Below, piece by piece: positions 29,963-64,000 of a stretch of 64,000 nt of DNA. Every line of letters starts with the position of its first letter. Position 1 is the first letter of the stretch. The DNA is taken from assembly GCF_900109575.1 (NCBI RefSeq), contig NZ_FOAF01000001.1, forward strand, positions 1,521,662-1,585,661, read 5' to 3'. Source of the DNA: Olivibacter domesticus (GTDB lineage: Bacteria > Bacteroidota > Bacteroidia > Sphingobacteriales > Sphingobacteriaceae). The translations under genes were made by a program, and so were the position numbers. The notes under the pieces are model-generated. The model worked only from the letters and a program-made list of their open reading frames with translations, was not told the origin of the DNA and searched no databases.

Positions 29963-30283
29963 AATGCTATTACAATGACCTAACTATTTTTGATACTAGT
30001 AAGACGGAATAATAAATTCGTGAGACATCCAAACACCTATCAAGGTAGTTTTTTTAATCGACTGCCAATTTTCGTTTGCTCTTCTGCTTCAATGCTGCTA
30101 GATTAGTTAAGGTCAAATGACACTGAGACTGGGCATGCGGTGAAGGCGTCTAATTCCATAAGAGCGAAGATGTTTTCCGCTATGATTTTAAAGACCAATT
30201 AGTAGAATAGGTTGTGTAAAAGTACTTAGACTCAGTATACCTATACAGTCATCGTGGACATCGATGTAGTGCTCCTTGTAAAA

Positions 30284-42990: not shown

Positions 42991-43064
42991 TAGGAAAAAC
43001 CTGCTCTTAACGAAATTTGGATGCGTCGGTTCCCATAAGAACTATAGAAGTACCTTTAAAAAGA

Positions 43065-43095
43065 AAAGCTATCCCTCAAACCAAGGAATAGCTTT
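43065..43095. terminator. Shared Rpn-module hairpin, copy A
   Basis: AAAGCTATCCC/GGAATAGCTTT with loop TCAAACCAA and one C-A mismatch. It is nearly identical to 58483-58513 and 60890-60920 and always lies at the 3' end of a minus-strand Rpn gene. Confidence 0.85.
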
Positions 43096-43117: not shown

Positions 43118-44106
43118 TTAATTTTTCTTCTTAGCCAAATCGGCACGGACTTTTTGGACGAAGTCAACTGTGACCTCAGCGGCCTTTGCCGCCTGCTCAT
43201 CTGTAAAGCCAAAGTCCAAAATCAGATTGCTGACAACCTCATATTTAGTTTCCAACACCTTTTTACGTTCTTCTGCCAGCAGTTTCTCCGAATTTGCTCG
43301 TTCAGTTTTAACGCCCAGCATTACACCTTCATTTTTCGCTTTTTCCAATAAATATTCTCTGGTTCCCACAGTGATACTCCTTCCTAATTTGTTTTCTACT
43401 TCTTCTTCAAAGATACGCAACATTTGCGGATTTTCAAAGCTTACATAATAGGCAAGAAAATCGTATATGCCTTGTCGCACAGATTTTTCCATCTTCCGCT
43501 TCATCATTTCATCGTACAAATCAAGCTTGATGGTTTTCAATTCTTCGTCGGTTATATCCTTGTGCCTGATAGCCATTAAAGAGGTCAGTACAACCACGGC
43601 AAATGGATTCAGGTTGGTTCTTAAAAATGTTCATCCTGATTCAATATTTTATAACAATTGAATTCATATGTTAATCTTGTACCCATAAATTCCTGGGTGT
43701 AAACCGAGGGATAGTAATTTTTGCTCCCATCGGCCAATATCGCTACAGCCGTAATCGGCACCTTATATTTATCATATATTTTATAGAAATACTCAAACAT
43801 TCTGGCAGCCAAATCTCCTTTACCTTTTCTTGATTGTACCTCAATGTGGCAAAGGATGAATTTTTCACCTCCCTCTTTCAGATGAACTTTTACCAGTTTG
43901 TCTACATATCTGAACCCTTTATTGTTAGGTTCAGGAGGAAAGAGCGTTTCAAATTCCTTGTCGAGATATTCAAATTCTTTATCCAGATCAAAGACTTCTT
44001 CGGCATTTGGAAAAAAGAATGTAAGAAAATGGGAGAAAGTCTGTTCCAAGATAGATTTCCAGATAGGATCATCAATGCTTTTGGCAATAGGTCTCTTTTT
44101 AGGCAT
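43118..44106 (-). pseudogene. Rpn-family (PD-(D/E)XK) nuclease gene with one frameshift
   Basis: The N-terminal part from MPKKRPIAKSIDDP has the nuclease core with D69, E89 and Q91 (ILCHIEVQSRKGKGDLAARMFEY). It runs into TAA at 43621 after NQDEHF. The other frame continues without a gap (NLNPFAVVVLTSLMAIRHKDI) to the C-terminus QKVRADLAKKKN. One missing T in the run CATTTTTAAG explains the break. Rpn proteins (PDDEXK_2 transposase-like family) promote RecA-independent recombination in E. coli. It occupies the place where imuA-imuB-dnaE2 would be in the duplicated locus. Confidence 0.85.
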
Positions 44107-44240: not shown

Positions 44241-44348
44241 TTGTGCTTATCCGACCATGGCCGTGTAAAACGTCCGGAGCGCATAATCGTACGCTTCACT
44301 GGGTTAAGAGCTTGCTTAAAGAGATGATTCTGTTTCCCACTGTTGATA
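44241..44348 (+). pseudogene. Fragment of a NUMOD4-type gene
   Basis: It encodes LSDHGRVKRPERIIVRF and, after a one-base deletion, WVKSLLKEMILFPTV. This matches residues about 38-73 of the intact gene at 62763-63557 (VSNHGRVKRLERLSVRFNGV, VLKEMIMLPAVN). The fragment ends exactly at the left edge of the second alkB duplication (44349). Confidence 0.8.
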
Positions 44349-45017
44349 AATTTTAAGTAAAAATAATAGAATATAGATGCAGCAGAAACTGTTTGACGAT
44401 AGTGGGCAATTGGTGCTTCCAGAGGAACTGATGGATTATACACCTGATTTTTTAGAAAGGAAGGATGCCGATGAGCTGCTGAGGCTTTTATTGAACAGGG
44501 TATCCTGGCAGCAAACGAAGGTAAAGATGTATGATAAGGAAGTGCTGACACCCAGGTTAACCGCATGGTACGGAGATCACCCGCTGCGGGCTGGAGACCA
44601 GCGCATACCTATCCCGTGGATACCCGAATTAGAGGCGATTAAGCAACGGATTGAGGCATTTACTGGTATGGTATTCCAGGGTGTCCTGCTGAATCTTTAC
44701 CGCGATGGTAATGATTCCGTGGCGTGGCATGCCGATAAGGATACGATACCTGGCCGCAAAACGGAAATAGCCTCCTTAAGCCTGGGAGCCGAGCGAAATT
44801 TTGATTTCCGAAAGAAGGATGAGCATATGAACCGCTATTCGATTAATCTGCAGCATGGTTCTTTACTGCTTATGAAAGGCGATCTGCAGCTTTACTGGGA
44901 ACATAGGATAGCGAAATCGAACGCTATTACAAGTCCCAGGATAAATCTCACGTTTAGAAAGGTGATGTGAATGTTTGAAAAAGCAGACGGATGGTTTGTC
45001 ATAAGCGCAAAAAAAGT
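44349..45017 (+). repeat. Duplicated block, copy 2
   Basis: Second copy of 38849-39516, including the last dnaE2 codons; one extra A lies after AAGTAAA. Homology ends at GCGCAAAAAAAGT. Confidence 0.95.
44377..44970 (+). CDS. alkB: AlkB-family 2OG-Fe(II) dioxygenase (copy 2)
   Basis: 197 aa, identical in sequence to the product at 38876-39469. I count nine nucleotide differences in 594 bases, all synonymous. All iron and 2-oxoglutarate ligands are kept (H118, D120, H176, R188, R194). Here it stands without dnaE2 upstream; only the final dnaE2 codons remain, so it has lost the operon promoter and may be silent or use a new one. The absence of amino-acid changes points to selection or gene conversion. 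Confidence 0.9.
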   Translation: MQQKLFDDSGQLVLPEELMDYTPDFLERKDADELLRLLLNRVSWQQTKVKMYDKEVLTPRLTAWYGDHPLRAGDQRIPIPWIPELEAIKQRIEAFTGMVFQGVLLNLYRDGNDSVAWHADKDTIPGRKTEIASLSLGAERNFDFRKKDEHMNRYSINLQHGSLLLMKGDLQLYWEHRIAKSNAITSPRINLTFRKVM

Positions 45018-56357: not shown

Positions 56358-57878
56358 CTATTCCTCTACCGTATCGACTTCTTTTCGAAGAAAAATGAAA
56401 ACAAACAGTGCTGTAAGCACTGTGATACCGCATAACAAAAACATAAGCGTTGAAAATCCTTTACTATAAACCTGATGTAAGTCCGCTTTTTCTACGGATG
56501 GCACTAGTACCAATGCTTCTTTGATATCTCCGGTAACAAGTCGCTGAGCAACCAAACTCGCATTCTTTCCTGCAACTTTCTCAATGTTACCACTTGTCAA
56601 AGCAGAAAATATTGCTGTTACTACAGCTATTACGAGCCCTTCTCCGGCTACACGAGAGGTACTAAAAATACCAGTTGCCATACCGGCTCTTTCTTTCGGT
56701 ACTACACTTACAGCTAGTCCGTCCATTAATCCCCATGGTAAACTGATTCCTACACCAATGGTTAGTAGCGATCCTATTAACGTATCAATTTCAGAACCAT
56801 CAGTAAAGTGCCCCAACCAGTAGAGTCCTATTGCCGATATTGCAAAGCCGATACTACAAATTATTCCTGGGGTAAACCAACGAGTCATATACCCAGAAGC
56901 TATAGGTAAAATAAGGAAAGGAGCGGAAAGTGCCATCATAATCTTACCCACAGCTATCTCATCCATTTCTTCAATCCCGACGAAACGTATGGGAAGCAGT
57001 ACAAGAAGTACTACAAATGCAAAAGACGGTGCTACCGCCAACAGCTGTGCACCTAAAAAACGGGGAAAGCGAAACAGACTCAGATCAAGCATGGGACGCT
57101 CACTTGAACGTTCGATCATCACAAATGCTACAAATAGGACTACAGCTGCAATCAATAGTGTTACCACAAATGGATGATTCCAGCCGCTTTCCGGGCCCTG
57201 AATTATCCCAAAAGTAAATAAAGAAAGTGCTAACGTAAAACTGATGGCACCCTTCCAGTCAAGCCCAGAGGCTTCAGGATCACGAGATTCTGTCATGAAG
57301 ACCATGGCTAAAAAAAAGGCTATTACTGCCAAGGTTGCTGTAAGCACAAAGATTGCCTGCCAACCAAAGGTTGCAATAAGCCACCCCGCTACAATAGGCC
57401 CAAAGGCTAATCCAATGCCAAAACTAGTTCCGACGATACTGAATGCTCGTAGTCTTTGTTGTCCTTCAAATTCCTGAGATAGTGATGCAAAGCCACCGGC
57501 AAATGCCGCAGCTGCACCTATCCCTTGAAATGCTCTAAGTAAATCAAACCAAACCAAGTTAATAGTGAAAAAAGCCAAACAAACCGAAAACATCCCATAG
57601 ATTATCGAGCCTATTAAAAGAACGCGTTTACGTCCGTAGTTATCGGCAAGTGTTCCGGCAGCCATCAAGGTGCTGCCAAAAGTTAATAAAAAGGAATTTA
57701 TAGCCCAGTTTAGCTGGATGGGACTACCGCCGAGCGTATTGCTAATTGCGGGTAAACCAACTGCTATTCCTGTAAATGAAAATGGAGTAGCAACGGCGAC
57801 ACAGCATATAGCTAAAAGAATGAATATTTTACGAGATGTAGTTGACGATTGTTTTTTTTTTCCCAAAGACCTAATCAT
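56358..57878 (-). CDS. MFS drug transporter, DHA2-like, 14 TM (regulon member 4)
   Basis: A 506-aa MFS protein with about 14 hydrophobic helices. Family signatures are LNWAINSFLLTFGSTLMAAG, LADNYGRKRVLLIG (motif A between TM2 and TM3), RAFQGIGAAAAFAGG (motif B) and GPIVAGWLIATFGW (motif C, typical of antiporters). The C-terminal loop before the last helix is extended. It probably exports hydrophobic toxic compounds. The promoter carries operator 4, coupling efflux to the reductases. Confidence 0.92.
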   Translation of the reverse strand: MIRSLGKKKQSSTTSRKIFILLAICCVAVATPFSFTGIAVGLPAISNTLGGSPIQLNWAINSFLLTFGSTLMAAGTLADNYGRKRVLLIGSIIYGMFSVCLAFFTINLVWFDLLRAFQGIGAAAAFAGGFASLSQEFEGQQRLRAFSIVGTSFGIGLAFGPIVAGWLIATFGWQAIFVLTATLAVIAFFLAMVFMTESRDPEASGLDWKGAISFTLALSLFTFGIIQGPESGWNHPFVVTLLIAAVVLFVAFVMIERSSERPMLDLSLFRFPRFLGAQLLAVAPSFAFVVLLVLLPIRFVGIEEMDEIAVGKIMMALSAPFLILPIASGYMTRWFTPGIICSIGFAISAIGLYWLGHFTDGSEIDTLIGSLLTIGVGISLPWGLMDGLAVSVVPKERAGMATGIFSTSRVAGEGLVIAVVTAIFSALTSGNIEKVAGKNASLVAQRLVTGDIKEALVLVPSVEKADLHQVYSKGFSTLMFLLCGITVLTALFVFIFLRKEVDTVEE

Positions 57879-57901
57879 GATGCTTAATTATTTTATAAGC
57901 G

Positions 57902-57957
57902 CAAAGATCAATATAGCATCATCGCTTTATTTTGCCATTTTAGGGTATTTCTTTGCA
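57902..57957 (-). promoter_or_regulatory. AraC-type operator/promoter 4
   Basis: On the minus strand: TGCAAA (57957-57952), GGCAAA (57936-57931), 25 bases, then GATCTTTG with TTTG at 57905-57902. Same 21-base spacing and same distance to the -7 element as the other three. Confidence 0.65.
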
Positions 57958-58079
57958 ATAACTATTCTTTTTACAGTCATTGCCTATAAGGTTAAAAGAG
58001 GACCTCATTATCGTCTTTGCTTGAGGGCTATCCGCTACAATCTTTTGTTCTATTGATTGTTGTACATTGTCAAAACGAA

Positions 58080-58262
58080 ATGGAACATGACCCAACAATT
58101 ACCTCTGACCAGAACTTGTATCTTATTTATGCAGATGGCCTACTAGGCGATGATCAGTAAGGGATCACAGACGGTGTTCATCCAAACGACCTTGGATTCG
58201 ATGGGATGCTTCATAAGATCCGGCCAATGATTTTAGAAATTTTTCGGCGTTATGAAATCTAA
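58080..58262 (+). pseudogene. Remnant of an SGNH/GDSL hydrolase (C-terminal end)
   Basis: The frame encodes NLYLIYADGLLGDDQ, an in-frame TAA at codon 27, then GITDGVHPNDLGFDGM and ILEIFRRYEI stop. DGVHPNDLGF is the block V of SGNH hydrolases carrying the catalytic Asp and His. The N-terminal two thirds are absent. The fragment lies directly before a NUMOD fragment. Confidence 0.8.
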
Positions 58263-58279
58263 CACGACACATAATAATT

Positions 58280-58476
58280 CAACAAACTGAAAATGATTAT
58301 ACGTACCGCTTTCAAATACAGACACAAGTGGAGGGACGTTATGTTTCCTTTCAAGTGCAACGGATGGTTTACTATTGCTTTGTAGAAACTTATGACCTCT
58401 TCGACAAAAATAATGTGATCATTTCTATAAAAGACAATGGATTGGATATACGACCGAAATATCTGAAGAAGATTTA
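58280..58476 (+). pseudogene. NUMOD4-gene fragment B
   Basis: It encodes YRFQIQTQVEGRYVSFQVQ and YYCFVETYDLFDKNN, through LDIRPKYLKKI, almost identical to residues about 77-140 of the gene at 61811-62746. It is fused at that point to the Rpn-module hairpin. Start and the downstream half are missing. Confidence 0.88.
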
Positions 58477-58482
58477 AAAAGA

Positions 58483-58513
58483 AAAGCTATCCCTCAAACC
58501 AAGGAATAGCTTT
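58483..58513. terminator. Shared Rpn-module hairpin, copy B
   Basis: Same sequence as 43065-43095, between the NUMOD fragment and the convergent Rpn gene. Confidence 0.85.
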
Positions 58514-58535
58514 ACTATATATTTATGTGAATCTT

Positions 58536-59423
58536 TTAATTCTTCTTCTTTTTAGCCAAATCGGCACGGACTTTTTGGACGAAGTCTATTGATACTTCAG
58601 CAATCTCCGCAGCTTGTTCATCGGATAACCTAAGCATTATAATAAGGTTCTCTACCACATCGTAGCTTTTCTTTTCCGTTGCTTCCCTTTTTACCGAATC
58701 AAAGGCATTCTGGGTATCCCATTTCGCTTTTAAACTAGCTTCGTACGCCATACGTTCCTCCTTTTTTAATTTAGACACTTCTCCTATCTTAAAGATAAGC
58801 TTAAAAACTCGTTTATCCAAAAATTTTGGGGTTTCATCCATACTGCTCATATGCTTGAGAAGATAGAACCATTTGTCCCGTTCACTCTCCAGCCGACCCT
58901 CATTTTTAACAAAGTTAGGTAATTGGAGGAATTTAAATCCCAGTTTCCTGTAAAAAATTTCACCCGTAGATTTGTCAGTCAATGCAATATCATGAAAATA
59001 CTGTTCTCTTTTCTCTTCATTCATGCGAAACTCCAGTACAGCAATAAGGTATACTTCAGGTAACTGATAATTATTGAATGCCTTCCCTTTGGGTAGCTGC
59101 CTCTGGATAAGACGCGATGTATAATATAATGCTCTGTCTTTAAAATACTCCTGCCTGATGCGTTGCATCTCAACAATAAAGAATTCTCCGTTCTTTCCTT
59201 TACAGTGCAGGTCAAATATTACACGCTTATCCTCATCGTCATCTCCGTCATGTTCTGTAGGCCCGTATTCCAGATCTTCAATGTATTTTTCGCCCTCAAA
59301 CAGGTCATTCAGGAATTCAATGAGAATTTCCTTGTTGGGTTCACTTCCGAAATAATGACGGAAACCCCAGTCGCTTAACGGATCAATAAATTTTCCAGCC
59401 TGTGGGTAGGTTGTGTTGGTCAT
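58536..59423 (-). CDS. Rpn-family recombination-promoting nuclease/putative transposase
   Basis: 295 aa from MTNTTYPQAGKFIDPLSDWGF; the frame is open 28 codons further. It is an intact PD-(D/E)XK (PDDEXK_2) protein: FRHYFGSEPNKEILIEFLND, catalytic D71 in VIFDLHC and E85-x-Q87 in FFIVEMQ. The C-terminal tail AEVSIDFVQKVRADLAKKKK is shared with the other two Rpn copies. It is probably the only functional Rpn enzyme in the window. It may cause or have accompanied the rearrangements around it. Confidence 0.9.
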   Translation of the reverse strand: MTNTTYPQAGKFIDPLSDWGFRHYFGSEPNKEILIEFLNDLFEGEKYIEDLEYGPTEHDGDDDEDKRVIFDLHCKGKNGEFFIVEMQRIRQEYFKDRALYYTSRLIQRQLPKGKAFNNYQLPEVYLIAVLEFRMNEEKREQYFHDIALTDKSTGEIFYRKLGFKFLQLPNFVKNEGRLESERDKWFYLLKHMSSMDETPKFLDKRVFKLIFKIGEVSKLKKEERMAYEASLKAKWDTQNAFDSVKREATEKKSYDVVENLIIMLRLSDEQAAEIAEVSIDFVQKVRADLAKKKKN

Positions 59424-59702
59424 AAGAAATAGATTTTGGTTTTTGTAAAGATAATAAAAACAACTTATTTGACTAATATTTTTAGCAAAAATATTACAAG
59501 AGTGCAACCCATGGAGAGTTCGGAATTTCTTAAGAAAAGTGAGCGTTGAGGTTTGATTTACATTTAGTCAAGTTCCGTCACTTACGATTTTTTCAGTAAT
59601 AGTAGTGATTCCTGGTATTTCGGAAACGTAGGATACTCCAGACCCAAATAAAGCAGAGGTTATTATAATAATGGCTTTGTGGTACACATGAGCAACATAT
59701 TA

Positions 59703-60230
59703 TCAACGTTTAATATACCCGTTCAATGCTACCGCATACGTTCTCCGCTGTACGTCTTCTGGTTGCATACCTTTTCGGCAGGCAATGTTAGCTCTAAAAT
59801 TGAATGCATGGGAGGGGCATAACACGTTTAAAGGAATGGTAGTTGGCCTAAAAAATATGTTGCTCTCGGAATAGACTGTATATACTGATCCTTTTTGTAC
59901 GATTAATAAAATATCATGGGGTGATACTTCTGTGATTCTCCCAAGAAAAGAAACCATTACAAATGTGTTCGGTTTTTGTTGATCCGAACTCCAGTAATCT
60001 TGGTCTATCCATACATCGTTTTTCAGACTCTTCAGGCTATGTTGATTTGTGTTGACTGCATCATGAAAAATATTAACATCGGAAATAAAGGCTTGTCCAT
60101 TTTTATCATACACCTGCAATAGATGTTTTTTATCCAAAACCGGCATTACGAAAAGTATGTCATTGATATGAACAGCTGTTGGCGCATCAAACATATCGCG
60201 CATAATAAGTGTGTGTGTAGCCATGAGCAT
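59703..60230 (-). CDS. Hypothetical protein, 175 aa
   Basis: A soluble beta-rich protein (AVHINDILFVMPVLDKKHLLQVYDKNG, VMVSFLGRITEVSPHDILLIVQKGSVYTVY). The strand pattern and ending (MQPEDVQRRTYAVALNGYIKR) suggest a compact domain. No family recognised. Isolated between an Rpn gene and a beta-lactamase remnant. Confidence 0.55.
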   Translation of the reverse strand: MLMATHTLIMRDMFDAPTAVHINDILFVMPVLDKKHLLQVYDKNGQAFISDVNIFHDAVNTNQHSLKSLKNDVWIDQDYWSSDQQKPNTFVMVSFLGRITEVSPHDILLIVQKGSVYTVYSESNIFFRPTTIPLNVLCPSHAFNFRANIACRKGMQPEDVQRRTYAVALNGYIKR

Positions 60231-60363
60231 GAGGTTTTGGTATGGATTAACTTGCTAAAGTTGCTCGTTTGATCCTAAAATTACAAAACATATAGAAATT
60301 TGCCAATTTTGTTGTAAAAAAATCAACTAGTGTATCATTAATTTAGCAAGTAGTGGTACCCGA

Positions 60364-60687
60364 ATGCAGTTTTACCAAGGAAAGATTTTGGCTAAACCAA
60401 CAACCGAATTCCTGTATGAAACTATGGTAGAAACTGTCGTTGGACCGAACCGGATAAAAGGCAAACTGCCCGAAAACCAAGAAGTTGCTCATAGACCAGG
60501 GAGTTCTTTTACCAATGATGAAGGATTAACTGCTGCGATCAATGATGTAGGAATTGTGCAATTACCCAACGGAAAACATTTTGCAATAGCAGTGTTTGTA
60601 TTTAACACAACGGAAAAATATGAGGTTGGAGAGGACATGATTGCGAGTATAGCAAAAGCAACTTGGGATTATTATACTGCGAAATAA
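60364..60687 (+). pseudogene. C-terminal fragment of a class A beta-lactamase
   Basis: TEFLYETMVETVVGPNRIKG, LPENQEVAH and LTAAINDVGIVQLPNGKHFA followed by VFVFNT match the last third of subclass A2 (CfxA/CME/PER-like) beta-lactamases. The Ser-x-x-Lys and SDN regions are absent, and the KTG box has become RPG (R44-P45-G46). Without the active-site serine it cannot hydrolyse beta-lactams. Confidence 0.85.
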
Positions 60688-60711
60688 TAGCAGTTGCTGA
60701 TTTTGCCTTAA

Positions 60712-60880
60712 TCAGTTTTCAAATACAGACACAAGTGGAGGGACGTTATATTTCCTTTAAAGTGCAACGGATGGTTTACTATTGTTTTGTAGAAGCTTAT
60801 GACCTTACCGACAAAAATAATGTGGTCATTTCTATAAAAGACAATGGATTGGATATACGGCCGAAATATCTGAAGTACCT
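60712..60880 (+). pseudogene. NUMOD4-gene fragment C
   Basis: It encodes FQIQTQVEGRYISFKVQ and YYCFVEAYDLTDKNN, through LDIRPKYLK, then joins the Rpn-module hairpin at the same codon as fragment B. It is joined upstream to the beta-lactamase remnant. Confidence 0.88.
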
Positions 60881-60889
60881 TAAAAAAGA

Positions 60890-60920
60890 AAAGCTATCCC
60901 TCAAACCAAGGAATAGCTTT
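60890..60920. terminator. Shared Rpn-module hairpin, copy C
   Basis: Third copy of AAAGCTATCCC/GGAATAGCTTT, between a NUMOD fragment and an Rpn 3' fragment. Confidence 0.85.
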
Positions 60921-60942
60921 ACTATATATTTGTGTGAATTTT

Positions 60943-61170
60943 TTAATTCTTCTTCTTTTTAGCCAAATCGGCACGGACTTTTTGGACGAAGTCAACTGTG
61001 ACCTCAGCAGCCTTTTCCGCCTGCTCATCTGTAAAGCCAAAGTCTATAATAAGGTTCTCTACCACATCATGACTTTTCTTTGCTTCGCCTTTGCGATAAA
61101 GAAAATCTTTTTCTTCCTTAAAAAATTTGCTTACTGCTTCCATAGCTTTTTTAAACCATTCATGCTCCAA
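60943..61170 (-). pseudogene. Rpn C-terminal fragment
   Basis: 75 codons: a charged helix, then SHDVVENLIIDFGFTDEQAEKAAE and the shared tail TVDFVQKVRADLAKKKK. The nuclease core is missing. It is nearly identical at its 3' end to copy A (43118). Confidence 0.85.
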
Positions 61171-61292
61171 CTAAAACAGACAAAACATGAAAGCTCCATT
61201 TGGCCTTAAAAATAAAAAACTAATTACAAATGAATTGTGTTTCCAAATTGCTGCGCAATTGTACAAATCGTAATTGCTTGAAATATCGACTT

Positions 61293-61487
61293 TCAGAGAA
61301 CCAGCGAAGCTAGCTTCTTCAATGTGTCAGGTCTTCGTTCTTTTGTATGCTGTATATCGTCTGGAAGCTCCTCGCTCCTAACAATATCCAATCCAAGTAC
61401 CTCGCGGACAATGACCGGCAAGGTCAACTCCAGATTCTCCTTGATAATCTTATCATACTGATTCGCTTGTTGTTTACTTTGGCTCAT
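61293..61487 (-). pseudogene. N-terminal fragment of another Rpn/PDDEXK transposase-like gene
   Basis: 64 codons: NQYDKIIKENLELTLPVIV and SEELPDDIQHTKERRPDTLKK. This is the conserved start of a Bacteroidota/cyanobacterial PDDEXK nuclease group, cut off just before the catalytic strands. Its promoter remains intact (61506-61536). Confidence 0.8.
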
Positions 61488-61810
61488 TCAGATTTAGGTA
61501 TGATGCAAAGATATAAAATCTAATATTTTTAGCAAAATAATATTGCATTTTTTCGCTTTGAAGAAGCTAAAAAGAGTTTGATCAGAAGATTGATTTAATT
61601 AAATTAATACAAAAAGAGCAAAAATATTTTCAAAAAAGAGAATACTATTTTTTGGGTAAACAAATTAATATGAAAGTGCTAGCGTCTCTCTTTAAATAAG
61701 CATAATTGTTCCGAAATTAACACCTCAACAGGAACACTATACTCATATTTGTGTACATGACTGCTTTTCAGTAAATTGCTTTTTTCGATCTACTGTTAAA
61801 CCGCTTTTCT
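61488..61810. other. AT-rich intergenic region between divergent genes
   Basis: No gene in 323 bases. Apart from the promoter at 61506-61536, only AT-rich tracts are seen. AATATTTTTAGCAAAA recurs upstream of the intact Rpn gene near 59473-59490. Confidence 0.6.
61506..61536 (-). promoter_or_regulatory. Perfect Bacteroidota promoter upstream of the Rpn remnant
   Basis: On the minus strand: TTTG (61536-61533), 19-base spacer, TATCTTTG (61513-61506), an exact match to TTTG-N19-TAnnTTTG. It now drives only a truncated gene. Confidence 0.7.
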
Positions 61811-62746
61811 ATGGCACAGCTAGACAAATTATATACCGACATATCAAAACCTTATCGCGACCAGAGCCTCACGGATAGACCTGGAGAAAAATGGAAACCG
61901 GTACCTGGTTTCGAACATTATTTTGCCGTTTCAAATTATGGAAGAGTTAAAAGACTCCGGCGTTATTCGTTCGATAGTATCGGAAGGAAATTCACTACTG
62001 CCGAAAAAATTATACTTCCTTCAATCAATTACTGCGAAAACAAGCTGAAAAATGATTTTACGTACCGTTTTCAAATACAGGCACAGGTGGAGGGACGTTA
62101 TGTTTCCTTTCAAGTGCAACGGATGGTTTACTATTGTTTTGTAGAAGCTTATGACCTAACAGACAAAAATAATATAATCATTTCTATAAAAGATAACGGA
62201 TTGGACATACGGCCGAAATATCTGAAGAAGATAACACTGAGCGAGAAATCTAAACGTACGTATGAAACGGGCAGGCAGCAGCCTACCTTTCTTTATGATC
62301 CCTCCTATAAAGAGCGTGCAGTGAATGCGTCTAATGCCATACAGGCCAAGATGGTTTCCTGCTACGATCTGAAAGGCCAACTGGTAGAGACTTTTACAAG
62401 CATTTTAAAGGCACGCAAGAAAACCGGAATCTGGTATGATAACATTCGGTATGCCCTGCGGCACCCCTATCACTTGATGGGCGGCTTTTATTGGAGGCCG
62501 GGTGATGACTTAGTAATTGACCTTGCAGAAAAACCAGGCAAGGATTATCGAGAGACCAGAGGGAGTAGGATAACTAAATTCGATCTTGAGGGGAATCCAT
62601 TGGAAAGGTATTTAGCTATATCGGAGGCCGCAAAACTGAACAACATTAGTCACCGTAGCATTATGAAAAACGTGAACAACGAATCGGAGAATGCAGGTGG
62701 TTTTATTTGGCGACTGGGCCATCACTATAAAAAGCTTAAACTATAA
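61811..62746 (+). CDS. NUMOD4/NUMOD1 DNA-binding protein lacking an HNH core (paralogue 1)
   Basis: A 311-aa protein. The N-terminal NUMOD4 motif (GEKWKPVPGFEHYFAVSNYG, residues 25-44) is followed by a central region with MVYYCFVEAYDL, then two NUMOD1-like repeats (SCYDLKGQLVETFTSILKAR; KFDLEGNPLERYLAISEAAK), each ending in FxWR. Such modules are DNA-recognition parts of homing endonucleases. No HNH or GIY-YIG catalytic motif is visible, so it is probably a DNA-binding relic or regulator. It is the source type for fragments B and C. Confidence 0.82.
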   Translation: MAQLDKLYTDISKPYRDQSLTDRPGEKWKPVPGFEHYFAVSNYGRVKRLRRYSFDSIGRKFTTAEKIILPSINYCENKLKNDFTYRFQIQAQVEGRYVSFQVQRMVYYCFVEAYDLTDKNNIIISIKDNGLDIRPKYLKKITLSEKSKRTYETGRQQPTFLYDPSYKERAVNASNAIQAKMVSCYDLKGQLVETFTSILKARKKTGIWYDNIRYALRHPYHLMGGFYWRPGDDLVIDLAEKPGKDYRETRGSRITKFDLEGNPLERYLAISEAAKLNNISHRSIMKNVNNESENAGGFIWRLGHHYKKLKL

Positions 62747-62762
62747 TCAATAATGTAAATTT

Positions 62763-63557
62763 ATGAACAAGCAAAGAAAAGCGATTAACACAGCCACTCC
62801 AGCACATAGAGACAGGTCATTAAACGACAGACCCGGTGAGCAGTGGCTACCCATCCCCCACCTTGAAAAGTTCTTGCTTGTATCCAATCATGGCCGTGTA
62901 AAACGTCTCGAACGCTTATCTGTACGTTTCAATGGGGTTAAATGCGTGCTTAAAGAAATGATTATGCTTCCGGCTGTGAATAAAAGCTATAATAAATTCA
63001 GAGACGACTATATACATGCATTACAACTCGAAACGAAGATAGAGGGAAAATTCATTTCATTTCAGGTGCATCGCATGGTATACTACTGTTTCGTTGAACC
63101 CTTTGACCTAAACGATAAAGACATTGTCATCAAAATAGCTGATGGCGGACTAGATATTCGGCCGCAGATGCTTTTGCGATTAAATCAGAAGGGCAAAGCG
63201 CAGCGCATGTATGAAACAGGCAGGCAGAAAAGCCCTTTCAGCTTTGATGATTTTAAAAGTAAACTGGAAGAATCACCTAACGGAAACTTAGACCAGCCTG
63301 TATCACAATATGATCATAACGGCATATTACAACACACCTACAACAATATTACAGAAGCAACGGAGATCACTGGAATAAAAGTGAAGGAAATTCGCCATGC
63401 CGCTAAATGGCTGGTTTGTTTATCGAAAGGTTATTACTGGCGTTATGGGAAAGAACCCTCTGTTGACGTGGACCGGATAAGGCAGATTATGGCAATGGAT
63501 GAGGTAAAAGTACTCGCAGACGCTTATAGACATTTTACGGGGGAAGATATGGTGTGA
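62763..63557 (+). CDS. NUMOD4/NUMOD1 protein (paralogue 2)
   Basis: A 264-aa tandem paralogue, 16 bases after the first. NUMOD4 is seen as GEQWLPIPHLEKFLLVSNHG, the central MVYYCFVEPFDLNDKDI is conserved, and one NUMOD1-like unit follows (SQYDHNGILQHTYNNITEAT) with a final YYWRYG. A C-terminal helix (DEVKVLADAYRHFTGEDMV) is unique. No nuclease motif seen. The fragment at 44241-44348 derives from this type. Confidence 0.8.
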   Translation: MNKQRKAINTATPAHRDRSLNDRPGEQWLPIPHLEKFLLVSNHGRVKRLERLSVRFNGVKCVLKEMIMLPAVNKSYNKFRDDYIHALQLETKIEGKFISFQVHRMVYYCFVEPFDLNDKDIVIKIADGGLDIRPQMLLRLNQKGKAQRMYETGRQKSPFSFDDFKSKLEESPNGNLDQPVSQYDHNGILQHTYNNITEATEITGIKVKEIRHAAKWLVCLSKGYYWRYGKEPSVDVDRIRQIMAMDEVKVLADAYRHFTGEDMV

Positions 63558-63791
63558 ACCTAGCAGGATTTGAAAGGATTAGTGTTCCCCGTCGGCAAAT
63601 ACCATATTCACAACCCTGACAATACGAATTTTAGTTGCTGGTTGCGTAATTGAGCACTCTATAATATCTTATTTTTTTAACAAAATATTTCTGTTCCGAA
63701 TACGTATCGGAAAAGTATGCAACTGCTAAACCACAGTATTCGACATTTGAACAACAGCTTGACGGCTGTTTATAGACACATTGAAAGTCGG

Positions 63792-64000
63792 TTACAGATT
63801 ATCGATCTGATACTTAACGTTGGCATTTACAGGATAAATGCCCATCCATTCACCGGTTATTTTTACTTCTTTTCCCGACTCTTCACCGACCAGTAGAGCA
63901 GTATATGAAGACTTATATTTAATCATATTTACACTTAGATTTACATGTAATTTTTTGCTTGGTTCTACATAAATTGAATCGTTTAGATCCAAAGCCGTTG
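63792..64000 (-). CDS. Partial hypothetical protein (5' end outside window)
   Basis: The C-terminal 69 codons of a gene running in from the right edge. It shows beta-rich sequence (KLHVNLSVNMIKYKSSYTAL, EVKITGEWMGIYPVN) reminiscent of small secreted or lipocalin-like domains. No family can be named from this part. Confidence 0.5.
   Translation of the reverse strand, partial: TALDLNDSIYVEPSKKLHVNLSVNMIKYKSSYTALLVGEESGKEVKITGEWMGIYPVNANVKYQIDNL

Follow-up and report, generated by a model that had tools for sequence, protein, structure and literature searches.

Features of the rpn loci

The window, by which we mean the whole 64,000-nt stretch of DNA that was analysed (C10:1521662-1585661 within the 6.78-Mb genome of Olivibacter domesticus), contains three loci of rpn, the gene for recombination-promoting nuclease. 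The genes (copies A, B, and C), their terminators, and the neighboring sequences were as follows.

58536..59423, minus strand: rpn A, full-length, 295 aa, class 1 (PDDEXK_2) body and alpha-type tail; PF12784 E 1e-69, TIGR01784 E 7e-20
58483..58513, minus strand: rpn A intrinsic terminator; terminator scan, minus strand only; folding z -3.3
58281..58473, plus strand: NUMOD fragment A, from the interior of a NUMOD4-NUMOD1 gene; 91% identity with the intact gene at nt 229-422
60943..61170, minus strand: rpn B, C-terminal part, 75 aa, class 3; 76% identity with L099 Rpn over residues 204-277
61293..61487, minus strand: rpn B, N-terminal part, class 3; 90% identity with L099 Rpn over residues 1-60
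60890..60920, minus strand: rpn B intrinsic terminator; terminator scan, minus strand only; folding z -3.2
60715..60875, plus strand: NUMOD fragment B, likewise from the interior of a NUMOD4-NUMOD1 gene; 93% identity with the intact gene at nt 257-417
60364..60687, plus strand: beta-lactamase C-terminal remnant, left neighbor of copy B; PF13354 E 5.8e-11
61811..62746, plus strand: intact NUMOD4-NUMOD1 gene; PF07463 E 2e-10, PF07453 E 4e-8
43118..44106, minus strand: rpn C, class 2 body and alpha-type tail; from ORFs, with a weak Transposase_31 match (E 0.002)
43065..43095, minus strand: rpn C intrinsic terminator; sequence identical to A and B, and folding
44248..44350, plus strand: further NUMOD remnant, close upstream of rpn C; 79% identity with the gene at 62763

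Body classes were defined by all-against-all BLASTP of the bodies (E < 1e-20), and the classes stayed separate at that threshold. The TIGR01784 match of rpn A exceeded the family cut-off, placing its product among the Rpn nuclease bodies; the closest named relative found for this body was from Olivibacter sp. XZL3 (81% identical), followed by Parapedobacter. Copies B and C, both broken, gave weak family matches or were recognised through a full-length relative. The preliminary description had taken copy B for an Rpn 3′ end only, but an N-terminus of the same class was found at 61293-61487; because residues 1-60 and 204-277 of the full-length relative are both present, rpn B is, judged by this alignment, an internally deleted class 3 gene. 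Rpn C was split by an apparent frameshift near 43597-43621; its class 2 relatives each form a single ORF. PADLOC gave no hit on three Rpn proteins. Elsewhere in the collected loci, L028:4400-4894 was a class 1 rpn that had lost its nuclease core through an in-frame internal deletion and kept the N-terminus and tail.

Positions 58310-58674 and 60717-61081 shared 365 nt at 89% identity, covering the NUMOD fragment, the hairpin, and the Rpn 3′ end, and chance was excluded for the repeats (E 1e-137 to 1e-51). The repeat reported at two places was therefore real, but not a mobile chimera. Among the different upstream partners that had been named for these ends, the beta-lactamase remnant (PF13354, E 6e-11) and an S24 repressor remnant were recovered, whereas the SGNH remnant was recognised by eye only.

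The hairpin was identical in copies A, B, and C, in agreement with the third hairpin and Rpn end already placed at 43065. A fourth copy (D, a class 3 remnant), with one mismatch in the hairpin, was found outside the window at L030:17635 (C10:1602634), 38 kb from copy C, so that the copies number more than three. Over a stretch of 38 kb, this genome has four nearly identical ends of tail plus terminator, which sit on three unrelated Rpn bodies. A run of N (gap or masked sequence) was present just past the right end of the window (L030:1324-2799).

On the minus strand the rpn stop codon was followed by the hairpin and then by a T run; in A and B the terminator scan called a 14-pair stem with TCTTTTT on this strand and nothing on the plus strand, and folding agreed. 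The repeated hairpin is therefore the intrinsic terminator of the rpn genes, on the rpn strand only. An element end or attachment site had also been considered for it and was dropped on this ground. The more distant tails E and F had stable hairpins of their own at the same position, with different stem sequences. The short string GAAGTACCTTTAAAAAG, said to precede the third hairpin, was present at 43048 and, with one mismatch, in copy B, but was absent from copy A; it is the usual downstream flank of the rpn terminator, and copy D has it too.

The intact gene at 61811 was the closest known source of the NUMOD fragments. Across five genomes of the genus, matches were limited to this gene and the two fragments, with none in the other four genomes. 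Copies A and B and the intact gene all lie within 4.5 kb, and the NUMOD parts of A and B have 8 differences from the intact gene in common, so the NUMOD junction of A and B goes back to one local event. The proposal of one ancestral junction holds to this extent; it does not hold for copy C, which has no NUMOD at its junction, and given this and the empty result in the four other genomes, copying of the junction to several sites does not hold either.

The two fragments had been described as ending at the same codon; their breakpoints differed, A extending approximately 5 nt beyond B. Copy A tracked the intact gene to GAAGAAGAT and then joined TTAAAAAG, and copy B departed from NUMOD at GAAG and then joined TACCTTAAAAAAG. 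GAAG is also present in the rpn flank GAAGTACCTT of copy C and nearly so in D, and such a 4-nt match at the join fits what would be expected of illegitimate joining. The 5-nt offset may reflect later conversion or a second join. With the remnant at 44248-44350, just upstream of rpn C, each of the window's three rpn loci has a NUMOD remnant next to it. Two further observations concern NUMOD: a short remnant (79% identity) at 30133-30206, and a tandem pair of NUMOD4 genes at 61811-63557 with no recognised nuclease domain.

Conflicting relationships of bodies, tails, and flanks

The four copies were grouped differently by each part of the gene. Bodies grouped B with D, apart from A and C; in the tail core, 20 of 22 informative sites paired A with D and B with C; and the downstream flank grouped A with B, the only copies with NUMOD at the junction. 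No single tree fits body, tail core, and flank, which implies that recombination has separated the tail both from the body and from the flank and bears out the suggestion that the unit is prone to conversion. The runs test on site patterns was weak (P = 0.013), with nearly all tail sites in agreement, and it is the conflict of the tail with body and flank, rather than this test, that carries the mosaic argument.

Across different classes, tails were 83-94% identical even though their bodies were not alignable. The tail of rpn C was nearly identical to those of B and of fragment H, an 82-nt piece of tail core at L030:10838-10919 that has no terminator and adjoins a NAD-dependent epimerase-like gene. 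Counted from the stop codon, the shared blocks had edges varying from -156..-45 to +64..+305.

The body of rpn A was 75-80% identical to three other genes in the genome, with an unrelated tail beyond KWDTQNAFD. For L029:5049-5930, for example, identity to rpn A was 80% through KWDTQNAFD, after which the tails were unrelated. Directly behind this gene a stand-alone alpha tail was found (L029:4824-5036) that begins with AAGGAGGAACGT-ATG, where genes of this class have their internal start, and looks displaced. Copy F, a class 3 remnant 1.7 kb away, matched this stand-alone copy over tail and terminator (84% over 227 nt). Most alpha-tail copies in this genome were broken genes, and in a recombinogenic region the pattern may thus partly be one of neutral decay.

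Related tails were found well beyond this genome. A 50-aa tail query had matches in 42 of 301 sampled genomes of the family, many of them within short open frames, and in a sample of 400 genomes of the order a tail profile matched 90. Approximately 60 loci were collected, in which a profile found 84 tails. For 31 of 75 placed tails the nearest DNA neighbor was close (bits > 130, approximately 80% identity or more) and its body class known; counted by hand from the table, 15 of these 31 neighbors were on a different body class.

Locus L192 (510-1834) consisted of a live rpn followed by two stand-alone tails. The second of these was 97% identical to the live gene of the same locus over a 60-nt core; compared with the L128 gene, it was 97% identical on both sides of the core and 58% identical within it. 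This alternation of identities marks it as a clear conversion chimera. Similar arrays, a live rpn with one or two tandem stand-alone tails, were present in L193, L194, and L196. The stand-alone tails stay open, and several start at the internal start codon.

The tail as a predicted antitoxin

In Escherichia coli, the C-terminal tail of Rpn is separately translated as the antitoxin RpnS (Zhong et al. 2023, PMC10327210). A corresponding internal start was predicted in rpn A.

58536..58751, minus strand: predicted RpnS-A, 71 aa; internal ATG at 58751, Shine-Dalgarno CCTCCTT at 58757-58763 (AAGGAGG on the minus strand)

When the relatedness of the genes is ignored, the internal Shine-Dalgarno sequence with ATG was more frequent than expected from synonymous codons in class 1 (12 of 13 observed, 7.8 expected) and in class 2 (21 of 22 observed, 3.5 expected). 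It was mostly missing in class 3 (3 of 12) and class 4 (2 of 6). GEAK/GIEK-type tetrads, varying in number, preceded the tail core (e.g., L115, L121, L131, and L140). The tail models showed a long helix and a two-helix bundle (H2-40, H44-50, and H55-70; H221-262, H268-275, and H279-294), with pLDDT 83-89 for the core and a three-helix layout like that of the described RpnAS fold (PMC10327210). A PDB fold search with the modelled tail gave no significant match, and sequence and profile searches of PDB chains gave no relevant match; modelling Rpn A at full length gave low confidence (pLDDT 60), and a PDB search with that model was uninformative. By family, the tail is probably an RpnS antitoxin and dimerisation domain, which would be made as the last part of RpnL and also by itself from the internal start.

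Rpn-like tails were also found on NUMOD4 proteins. In Parapedobacter, L145:1885-3138 encodes a 417-aa protein with NUMOD4 and NUMOD1 and the C-terminal end ...GIEKGKITVVKNLLAEFGFTDKQAAYAAEVPVDVVRRISSEL, and the NUMOD4-NUMOD1 protein of L180 (495-aa ORF) likewise has an Rpn-like tail; both tails are of the alpha type with the tetrad GIEKG/GFEKG. The tail profile matched L145 with E 8e-14, L145 being absent from the profile alignment. Related NUMOD proteins of L181 and L182 stop before the Rpn-like tail. The convergent NUMOD-Rpn junction was considered as a source of these fusions and dropped, because the two genes are on opposite strands in the window and on the same strand in Parapedobacter.

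Probable exchange of 3′ ends, alternatives, and known systems

The best explanation of these patterns, to which as a whole we assign a probability of approximately 0.75, is that rpn paralogues have exchanged their 3′ ends through gene conversion or recombination over short tracts whose edges vary. The exchanged unit would comprise the last 45-50 codons or so of rpn, the stop codon, the intrinsic terminator, and a little downstream DNA. In the case of A and B, the tract would have run beyond the terminator into a NUMOD fragment previously joined there, so that tail, terminator, and approximately 160 nt of NUMOD were transferred between rpn genes of class 1 and class 3. Such an exchange could change the self-recognition specificity of a nuclease, with its former tails persisting as stand-alone rpnS.

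The preliminary description suggested a mobile or conversion-prone unit. A mobile element, in which Rpn would transpose the NUMOD fragment, hairpin, and Rpn end together, is highly improbable. Copies at several sites and a hairpin close to the edge would suit such a unit, as would the RecA-independent recombination promoted by Rpn in E. coli (Kingston et al. 2017, PMC5350276), but NUMOD is at the junction in only two of the four copies, the hairpin is a gene terminator and not an element end, and the edges differ among the compared pairs, one of them falling within coding sequence. A repeat search of 57000-64000 found no inverted pair bounding a unit, and the fixed ends, terminal inverted repeats, and target-site duplications of an insertion sequence or transposon were not found (target-site duplications being sought by eye). 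Zhong et al. (PMC10327210) likewise found no evidence of autonomous rpn transposition. The shared blocks vary in their edges, and neither duplicated target sites nor a transposase was seen, which favors gene conversion over transposition. Simple segmental duplication with later decay, in which A and B would derive from one local duplication of a convergent rpn-NUMOD pair and C and D would be older paralogues that have conserved the tail, with no need for exchange, is also unlikely, if less so. The proximity of A, B, and the intact NUMOD gene, the 8 differences shared by A and B, and the prevalence of remnants agree with it; the conflict between tail-core and flank groupings and the high identity of cross-class tails on bodies that are not alignable do not, and because A and B differ in body class, duplication alone is unable to give them a common tail.

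A different question is whether exchanges, if real, have any function. They could simply arise because the paralogues are numerous and recombinogenic and the region is tolerant, without any selection for new tail specificity, a possibility to which we give appreciable weight, although well short of even odds. The many pseudogene copies and the tail-core fragment H without a terminator point in that direction, whereas the internal start signal kept above codon expectation in classes 1 and 2, the stand-alone tails that stay open and in several cases begin at the internal start, and the finding that tail repeat number sets RpnL-RpnS recognition in E. coli (PMC10327210) argue for function. Exchange of 3′ ends by conversion could, tentatively, be extended to a genome-wide pool of exchangeable Rpn antitoxin cassettes in Sphingobacteriaceae, in which stand-alone rpnS, serving as templates, would re-tail live nucleases by gene conversion and change their toxin-antitoxin specificity, and from which the tail would also have been grafted onto NUMOD4 DNA-binding proteins; we regard this extension as possible but doubtful.

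If tail exchange is right, it explains how Rpn antitoxin tails could diversify fast enough for phage defence, a question left open by Zhong et al.; a live gene with tandem stand-alone tails would be a concrete system for watching the switching of antitoxin-domain cassettes, and gene trees of Rpn proteins built on tails would be unreliable. The toxin-antitoxin nature of Rpn, its variable tails, and stand-alone rpnS are already known. The literature search returned no description of tail exchange between Rpn classes, of conversion with stand-alone tails, or of NUMOD4 fusions, and nothing on NUMOD4 in Bacteroidetes.

Three known systems are comparable. Rpn/YhgA (Kingston et al. 2017, PMC5350276) belongs to the same family, and its nuclease cuts can seed short recombination tracts; the available part of that report draws no link between Rpn activity and exchange of Rpn's own tails. 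In the Rhs/CdiA polymorphic toxins (e.g., PMC3967940), a conserved body likewise carries an exchangeable C-terminal end, displaced older ends are kept downstream, and the main gene recombines with orphans; the exchanged part is there a toxin domain with a separate immunity gene, whereas here it is probably an antitoxin/dimerisation domain of an intracellular nuclease. The nearest system is Rpn/RpnS of E. coli (PMC10327210; COG5464, PF04754, PF12784, and TIGR01784), with which the loci share a PD-(D/E)XK body and variable C-terminal tail, tetrad repeats preceded by an internal start (here predicted), rpnS standing alone downstream of certain genes, and arrays formed by tandem duplication without transposon ends. 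Zhong et al. described the variable tails, the stand-alone RpnS, and the tandemly duplicated arrays, and suggested Rpn as a possible initiator of the array-forming recombination. Stand-alone RpnS of E. coli group with their own upstream gene, whereas the stand-alone tails described here can differ from, or be chimeric with, the tail of the live gene, and one tail with its terminator is found on three to four body classes.
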